IMG/VR virus record: IMGVR_UViG_3300031599_000033
Coordinates: 1-24,928 of that record
Length of the DNA stretch: 24,928 nt
Direction: 5' to 3' (one strand)
Origin: a virus
The translations under genes were made by a program, and so were the position numbers. Shown in pieces: positions 6,433-6,930 of the stretch. Below the pieces are notes generated by a model, which searched no databases, was not told the DNA's origin, and saw only the letters and a program-made list of their open reading frames with translations. Within the stretch, counting starts at the first letter, position 1, and each line of letters begins with the position of its first letter.

Positions 6433-6457
6433 AAACAGGTCCTTCGGGGCCTGTTTT
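6433..6457 (+). terminator. intrinsic terminator after the capsid gene
   Basis: AAACAGGTCC pairs with GGGCCTGTTT (10 bp, one G-U) closed by a C(UUCG)G tetraloop and followed by TTTTATT. It ends the core/protease/scaffold/capsid operon. Confidence 0.9.
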
Positions 6458-6471
6458 ATTGACTGCGGTGT

Positions 6472-6479
6472 CATAAATA
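6472..6479 (+). promoter_or_regulatory. T4-type late promoter for the riboswitch-peptide unit
   Basis: CATAAATA followed by CATGTG. The riboswitch P1 strand starts only 3-7 bases downstream, so the aptamer sits at the very 5' end of the RNA. Confidence 0.65.
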
Positions 6480-6482
6480 CAT

Positions 6483-6533
6483 GTGTCGTTCATCCAGACG
6501 CAGGACGGAAGTAGCAATAGCGAAGGAACGCAC
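6483..6533 (+). ncRNA. glutamine riboswitch, glnA / Downstream-peptide class
   Basis: The conserved core of this aptamer class is visible: CGTTCATCC at the 5' side, GGACGGAAGTAG in the middle and CGAAGGAACGCAC at the 3' side. P1 pairs CGTTC (6487-6491) with GAACG (6526-6530), extended by GTG (6483-6485) with CAC (6531-6533) across one bulged U. P2 pairs TCC (6493-6495) with GGA (6503-6505). A short P3-like GC/GC pairs around AATA. CGC in the P2 loop (6499-6501) could alternatively pair with GCG (6520-6522) as a pseudoknot. Members of this class bind L-glutamine and, in the Downstream-peptide form known from marine cyanobacteria and their phages, precede very short ORFs, exactly as here. Possible expression platform: CACT (6531-6534) can pair with AGTG (6551-6554) beside the Shine-Dalgarno, excluding the outer part of P1. 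Confidence 0.88.
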
Positions 6534-6557
6534 TTAACTTTAATTAGGAGAGTGTTT

Positions 6558-6674
6558 ATGGATAAGTTCACGTTAATGAGATACTTACAACTAATCGCAG
6601 AACGAAAATTAGATCAAAAAAGAAAAGTGTTATTCCGCAGATTTTATTTGAAAACGGTTGACACAGATAAATAA
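6558..6674 (+). CDS. 38-residue basic peptide controlled by the glutamine riboswitch
   Basis: The ATG is preceded by TTAGGAGAG with seven bases between AGGAG and the start, the best ribosome site in the region; in-frame codons further upstream lie inside the aptamer and are not coding. The peptide (MDKFTLMRYLQLIAERKLDQ, then KRKVLFRRFYLKTVDTDK) is strongly basic and probably one amphipathic helix. It has no signal peptide. Short ORFs of 17-100 codons behind Downstream-peptide RNAs are a known but poorly understood arrangement. The run MRYLQLIAER has the spacing M-R-x2-Q-x-I-x2-R that I recall from cyanobacterial glutamine-synthetase inactivating factors (GifA/IF7), which are also small, basic and nitrogen-regulated. 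That link is an inference from memory, not an alignment. The stop codon overlaps the next late promoter. Confidence 0.75.
   Translation: MDKFTLMRYLQLIAERKLDQKRKVLFRRFYLKTVDTDK
6666..6673 (+). promoter_or_regulatory. late promoter overlapping the peptide stop codon
   Basis: GATAAATA covers the last codons and first two stop-codon bases of the 38-residue peptide gene. It could drive the short leader-like ORF, the terminator and possibly the tRNA downstream. Confidence 0.45.
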
Positions 6675-6724: not shown

Positions 6725-6793
6725 ATGCACAAGAATACACAACAATCATTTTATTGGTGCTGGACAGCAATGTCTAGGTGTGTCTTGATGTAA
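6725..6793 (+). CDS. possible 22-residue Trp-containing leader peptide
   Basis: An ORF reading MHKNTQQSFYWCWTAMSRCV followed by LM, with AGGA about nine bases before its ATG. Two Trp codons sit at positions 11 and 13, it ends 25 nt before an intrinsic terminator, and a tRNA-Trp gene follows. This is the outline of a translation-coupled attenuator. A competing pairing exists: CTAGG at 6774-6778 with CCTAG at 6824-6828 in the left arm of the terminator, and a small hairpin (TGCT 6758-6761 with AGCA 6766-6769) covers the second Trp codon. The ORF is too short to be trusted by length, and it may be chance. Confidence 0.35.
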   Translation: MHKNTQQSFYWCWTAMSRCVLM

Positions 6794-6818: not shown

Positions 6819-6853
6819 AAGCCCCTAGCATTAACGTGTTGGGGGCTTTTTTT
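6819..6853 (+). terminator. intrinsic terminator immediately upstream of tRNA-Trp
   Basis: AAGCCCC (6819-6825) pairs with GGGGCTT (6842-6848); the stem extends inward through T-G, A-T, G-T, C-G and A-T pairs. A T run continues to 6853. The T run ends two bases before the tRNA 5' end. Confidence 0.85.
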
Positions 6854-6855
6854 AT

Positions 6856-6930
6856 AGGGGTGTAGTGTTAATGGTAACACGTTGGATTCCAAATCCAAAA
6901 TTAGCGGTTCGAATCCGTTCACCTTTGCCA
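6856..6930 (+). tRNA. tRNA-Trp (anticodon CCA)
   Basis: A full cloverleaf can be folded. The acceptor stem AGGGGTG pairs with CACCTTT (two G-U pairs), then discriminator G and an encoded CCA at 6928-6930. The D stem is GTGT/ACAC with an 8-base loop containing GG. The anticodon stem is TTGGA/TCCAA with loop TTCCAAA, giving anticodon CCA at 6889-6891. The variable loop has four bases, and the T stem AGCGG/CCGTT encloses TTCGAAT. G73 is usual for bacterial tRNA-Trp. It is the only tRNA gene I find, and it begins two bases after a terminator T run, so its own transcription must come from read-through or regulated antitermination unless a promoter is hidden. Confidence 0.93.

Follow-up and report, generated by a model that had tools for sequence, protein, structure and literature searches.

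Organization of the locus downstream of the capsid gene

The analysed stretch of viral DNA (IMG/VR record IMGVR_UViG_3300031599_000033, 24,928 nucleotides, hereafter the window) belongs to a T4-like phage; its portal, head protease and major head protein matched PHROG families. A short unit containing a riboswitch adjoins the capsid gene, as the original prediction had stated, and is bounded by one terminator before it and another after it. A stem-loop equivalent to the first of these was found 3' of the capsid gene in relatives too. The features of the locus are as follows.

6434–6460, plus strand: Rho-independent terminator of the capsid gene (AACAGGTCCTTCGGGGCCTGTTTTATT), which sets the riboswitch unit apart
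6472–6479, plus strand: T4-type late promoter CATAAATA, predicted start site at about 6485 (G)
6485–6534, plus strand: glutamine-I aptamer RF01739 (cmscan, 47.8 bits, cut-off 35)
6487–6491 with 6526–6530, plus strand: helix P1 of the aptamer
6487–6531, plus strand: aptamer core CGTTCATCC / GGACGGAAGTAG / CGAAGGAACGC
6507–6508 and 6531, plus strand: equivalents of G22/G23 and of C60, numbered from the crystallised aptamer sequence (PMC5393176)
6530–6555, plus strand: expression-platform hairpin, GCACUU (6530–6535) with GAGUGU (6550–6555), closing over the Shine-Dalgarno
6546–6550, plus strand: Shine-Dalgarno AGGAG, part of which lies in the 3' arm of the hairpin
6558–6674, plus strand: 38-codon ORF for a basic peptide MDKFTLMRYLQLIAERKLDQKRKVLFRRFYLKTVDTDK, frame kept in the relative L361
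6658–6686, plus strand: sigma-70-like (early) promoter, near-consensus TTGACA-17-TATAGT, overlapping the end of the ORF and beginning the next unit
6725–6793: second tiny ORF of 22 codons, MHKNTQQSFYWCWTAMSRCVLM, downstream of the early promoter
6819–6848, plus strand: terminator ending the unit ahead of tRNA-Trp
6856–6930: tRNA-Trp

The order of promoters, terminators and tRNA-Trp indicated that the late promoter drives a short unit consisting of the riboswitch, the peptide and possibly the 22-codon ORF. Control of the next large gene (7008) by the riboswitch was considered and dropped, because a terminator, a tRNA and a second late promoter lie in between. At the position matching 6725–6793, L361 also has an ORF (MSITDTNTFYWYPLKSKGRY), with FYW in common.

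The RNA belongs to the glutamine-I class

All sequence elements named in the original prediction (late promoter, aptamer core, Shine-Dalgarno and tiny basic ORF) were found in the window. The aptamer had been called a glnA/Downstream-peptide type, and the Rfam check proposed for it separated the two: RF01739 (glutamine-I/glnA aptamer) matched above its curated cut-off, with an E-value of 9e-8 for the window against all families and of 2e-11 for the family alone, whereas RF01704 (Downstream-peptide, glutamine-II) had no match in the window at E up to 1 (cmscan). The glnA assignment therefore stood and the Downstream-peptide assignment did not. The invariant RF01739 core is present (P1, CGGAAGUAG and CGAAGGAACGC), and an expression platform in the 5' UTR of a gene was recognized in the covarying Shine-Dalgarno hairpin and the conserved ORF. 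The leader as a whole has an unremarkable folding energy (z = -0.03), which is not diagnostic, so that the evidence rests on the family match and covariation, not on stability. Judged by its family membership, the RNA at 6485–6534 is a genuine glutamine-I riboswitch, and it would be expected to bind glutamine. A strict 31-base aptamer pattern was found in at least 120 stretches of IMG/VR, and a pattern search with the late promoter included also returned at least 120 stretches. Weak Rfam matches to isrG, atpB and Afu_191 in the window were below cut-off and were taken as chance.

The aptamer lies at the predicted start of a late transcript

In half of the distinct viral leaders (45 of 90, 0.17 expected), the hexamer TAAATA lies exactly 5–7 nt ahead of the aptamer (helix P1), which indicates that the aptamer opens the transcript. 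This spacing supports the earlier placement of the riboswitch at the 5' end of a late transcript. The gap of 3 bases given there between promoter and aptamer needed correction: counted from CATAAATA, the model begins 5 nt away (6485) and helix P1 begins 7 nt away (6487). As in T4-type late promoters, a TATAAATA-like element stands about 5 nt before the predicted +1 and recurs at this fixed distance. When +1 was placed with T4-like promoter-to-start spacing, the predicted start fell on P1 or within two nucleotides of it, and the predicted +1 base was A in 35 of the 45 leaders with the promoter hexamer. The hexamer is kept in the 92% relative L361 although its flanks have diverged. HATAAATA occurs 9 times in the window, which is not above chance (7.7 expected), and the evidence is thus carried by position. 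These observations suggest that the unit is probably expressed late.

A covarying hairpin covers the Shine-Dalgarno

Across 27 non-redundant leaders, the pentamer that follows P1 is complementary to a pentamer overlapping the end of the Shine-Dalgarno: 133 of 135 possible pairs form, and all five core pairs are intact in 25 leaders. When the arms were permuted, none of 20,000 trials reached 133 pairs (mean 125.6). Two pairs of the hairpin change on both sides in a compensatory manner (CACTT/AAGTG, CACCT/GGGTG, CATCT/AGATG, CGCCT/AGGTG). The hairpin also appeared in the unconstrained minimum-energy fold. It starts at C6531, the equivalent of C60, and can be extended to G6530, the equivalent of G59. 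In the crystallised aptamer, G22 and G23 lack order in the free form and become paired once ligand is present, and a long-range G23-C60 pair exists in the bound form (PMC5393176); moreover, G59:C1 contacts glutamine (PMC6698751). Since the hairpin uses the C60 and G59 equivalents, ligand and hairpin compete for the same nucleotides.

On this basis the following course may be proposed. The late polymerase would start at about 6485, making the aptamer the first RNA to emerge. At low glutamine, GCACUU would pair with GAGUGU and hide the Shine-Dalgarno as well as the spacer that leads up to the AUG. When glutamine is abundant, the ligand would be enclosed by P1 and by the newly formed long-range pair G6508-C6531 (G23-C60 in the solved structure); the bound aptamer would take away the base of the hairpin, the ribosome site would be freed and the peptide translated. 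When the fold was constrained to contain the aptamer and C6531 was made unavailable, the 3' arm of the hairpin was predicted to become more open, though only partly. Because the overlap between hairpin and bound aptamer comprises only one or two pairs, the switch may be weak, and in the folding model a partial, co-folded state is possible.

The glutamine-I riboswitch at +1 of the phage late promoter is most likely a translational ON switch for the 38-residue peptide. The reading is based on aptamer family membership, promoter geometry, hairpin covariation and the conserved ORF; the ON direction is our inference, and the sequences are best read as controlling translation in this direction. It is plausible that the phage would sense the nitrogen state of its host in this way.

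Relatives of the locus

One contig (L343) was 99.97% identical to the window over 14.4 kb and represents the same phage population. Its near-identical 90-kb contig (L390–L393) carries a tryptophan halogenase, a ribonucleotide reductase and five tRNAs. In the more distant L361 (92% identical over 4.4 kb), the promoter hexamer is preserved along with the core of the aptamer, the leader and the ORF. Eight contigs, the window included, have the riboswitch unit 64–81 nt past the capsid gene; in three more it lies farther downstream. About a tenth of the contigs with related capsid genes showed the unit in the sequence examined, and since close relatives without it at this site exist, the unit behaves like a cassette. 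The aptamers of L173 and L179 have different P2 arms with preserved pairing, that is, compensated changes. In relatives, manA RNA (RF01745) and freshwater-2 RNA (RF02980) were seen downstream of the capsid gene or the peptide (L127, L129, L201, L168, L173); the site collects regulatory RNAs.

The 38-residue peptide

The original prediction of a small basic peptide directly behind the riboswitch agreed with the conservation of the ORF in L361, where the frame is intact and the codons differ by 8 synonymous and 6 nonsynonymous changes. The 38-residue ORF is genuine. AlphaFold2 predicted one helix for residues 3–36 (mean pLDDT 84). No relative of the peptide was found in Pfam, PHROGs or PDB, and it is not a DUF4278 protein, as it had no Pfam match while the same scan found DUF4278 in true IF17-like proteins.

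Related peptides behind the same type of switch are present in many marine phages. A profile HMM was trained on 28 phage peptides that carry either W-C or Y-C as a motif, excluding the window peptide. The window peptide is without the W-C motif typical of its family and scored weakly on its own (10.0 bits, E 0.53 among 14,075 ORFs); taken as a single pre-chosen candidate, it was equalled by 2 of 5000 shuffles. Intermediates (L370, L349) connect it to the family, for which dN/dS is about 0.2. By these sequence comparisons, the window peptide belongs, as a divergent member, to a family of phage peptides that is under selection. A tblastn search of the family peptides against isolate phages gave nothing useful.

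Unrelated small proteins were also seen behind the same phage riboswitch (L003, L007, L014, L021, L047 and others), including a 64-aa GTSGY family with a weak PHROG 32989 match, a 50-aa NYRDFE family, a 78-aa RYRHLQ family and YRG proteins of DUF4278-like type. Tandem aptamers occurred in viral and SAR86 sequences (L006, L031, L046, L048, L076, L091, L123, L221), several of them preceding peptides that end in PFYP/FFPYYL or YRG peptides.

Bacterial glutamine riboswitches and the absence of GlnE

The strict aptamer pattern was found in 54 stretches of GTDB genomes, mostly of SAR86, SAR116, Burkholderiales and other marine Proteobacteria, complete SAR86 chromosomes included. The genes behind the bacterial riboswitch include those for large and small subunits of glutamate synthase, two types of glutamine synthetase and ammonium transporters, and some proteobacterial glutamine riboswitches precede small peptides. 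Examples ahead of GOGAT, GS (GlnA and GlnII type) and Amt genes in SAR86, SAR116 and other marine Proteobacteria are L252, L245, L215, L217, L223, L203, L228, L284, L293 and L295.

The phage-peptide profile also found chromosomal peptides of Burkholderiales (E 5e-8 to 7e-7 among 14,075 ORFs). In one family of this order, 8 of 17 genomes have a tandem glutamine riboswitch followed by a homologue of the phage peptides; two of these eight have an irregular leader or copy number. The adenylyltransferase GlnE, which switches off glutamine synthetase, was found in none of the eight genomes and in seven of the nine others (Fisher p 0.002, for genomes that are not independent, as all belong to one family). 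Two genomes are without both GlnE and the riboswitch-peptide, and PII is present in all 17. Among nine other riboswitch-bearing proteobacterial genomes, GlnE was clear in one. Since the genomes are related and possibly incomplete, the GlnE pattern is a lead, not proof. The glutamine synthetases of GlnE-less genomes show drift at the adenylylation site with the tyrosine kept (QDLYTMSPEE vs KNLYDLPPEE, in only three readable sequences), which was not counted as evidence. In lacking GlnE, the related Burkholderiales resemble cyanobacteria, which are not known to carry this enzyme.

By analogy, this suggests that the Burkholderiales peptides may be glutamine synthetase inactivators comparable to cyanobacterial IF7/IF17. 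The window peptide could likewise be a basic, single-helix protein that inhibits nitrogen assimilation in the host, with glutamine synthetase as the likeliest target, resembling the glutamine-induced IF17; we regard this as a tentative possibility. More speculative again is the wider idea of a single glutamine-induced micropeptide family, carried both by marine T4-like phages and by Burkholderiales without GlnE, that inactivates glutamine synthetase and would be the proteobacterial counterpart of IF7/IF17, captured by phages and rewired to late promoters.

Alternative explanations

For the peptide, there is about an even chance that the riboswitch is real and its product has a target other than nitrogen assimilation (a regulator, a membrane or a nucleic acid) or is mainly a translated leader. 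The missing Pfam, PHROG and PDB relatives and the several unrelated peptide families behind the same switch in phages speak for this; the purifying selection and the homologous chromosomal peptides under the same control in GlnE-less bacteria speak against it. It bears only on the target of the peptide and is compatible with the switch mechanism. A glutamine OFF switch, or control of transcription rather than translation, is favoured by folds that rival P1 in free energy modelling and by the different leaders of the SAR116 riboswitches on Amt genes, but the covarying hairpin holds the Shine-Dalgarno, no terminator lies between aptamer and ORF, and type 1 and type 2 glutamine riboswitches have both been reported as ON switches in cyanobacteria (PMC6316151). 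Such a reversed or transcriptional switch is unlikely.

Concerning the host, the original prediction had assumed a marine cyanophage, in which a Downstream-peptide riboswitch would read the nitrogen state of a cyanobacterium. Glutamine riboswitches have indeed been published in T4-like cyanophages (PMC9964418, PMC9602691), and DUF4278-like proteins, such as picocyanobacteria have, are encoded on some viral contigs. However, the aptamer of the window is of type 1, its peptide falls outside DUF4278, and the capsid, terminase and RNR proteins are nearest to those of large T4-like (jumbo) phages of Pseudomonas, Vibrio, Sinorhizobium, Stenotrophomonas and enterobacteria, not of cyanophages. These affinities point to Proteobacteria as the probable host group, in which the riboswitch sits on nitrogen-assimilation genes; the cyanophage frame was abandoned as very unlikely. 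Least probable of all is a non-functional relic carried by recombination. The patchy occurrence of the unit among related phages would fit, but the aptamers of the window and L361 are distinguished solely by the P2 loop region, their leaders match almost completely and the ORF has remained open.

Comparison with known glutamine riboswitches

The Synechocystis gifB leader (glutamine-I, type 1, RF01739) resembles the window in aptamer sequence and fold, proximity to the start codon, control of a small protein and proposed ON action. It differs in that the window aptamer lies at +1 of a phage late promoter and has a compact covarying Shine-Dalgarno hairpin starting from C60; no relation of the window peptide to the gifB product IF17 was detected. 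In cyanobacteria, IF17 is under a glutamine riboswitch and inactivates glutamine synthetase (PMC7760959, PMC6316151). IF7 and IF17 are small and basic like the window peptide, without detected sequence homology to it, and for the latter inhibition of glutamine synthetase is a proposal. The glutamine-II (Downstream-peptide, RF01704) RNAs of marine picocyanobacteria also control short ORFs and have a similar binding site, but differ in their pseudoknot architecture and DUF4278 products.

In the literature searched, descriptions of phage riboswitches are scarce, and essentially a single paper treats one at length. Melnitz, Mosig and a Prochlorococcus phage are already published carriers of glutamine riboswitches, and glutamine-I doublets in tandem have been described as well (PMC9481103). 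New with respect to that literature are the late-promoter +1 arrangement, the covarying Shine-Dalgarno hairpin in phage leaders, the peptide family common to phages and Burkholderiales, and a correction to Melnitz. Placing a metabolite sensor on the very first nucleotide of late mRNAs constitutes a recurrent, testable design, and it is associated with a micropeptide family common to bacteria and phages.

Among isolate phages, a nucleotide search recovered the riboswitch from Melnitz strains alone; the remaining matches examined were tRNA or unrelated. The Methylophilales phage Melnitz has the same aptamer and Shine-Dalgarno hairpin, 86.7% identical to a typical phage leader of our set, and its riboswitch was published as controlling the adjacent tmRNA (PMC9004378). 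Directly behind the riboswitch (L002:4987-5154, MZ577097.1) we found a missed 32-aa ORF of the same peptide family, MTLYQQWCYLKAQKEYRRRQKILMYFRIRLKG (L002:5056-5154). The Melnitz switch precedes this ORF rather than obviously controlling the tmRNA. Where the 32-aa ORF lies, MZ577097.1 annotates a minus-strand ORF.
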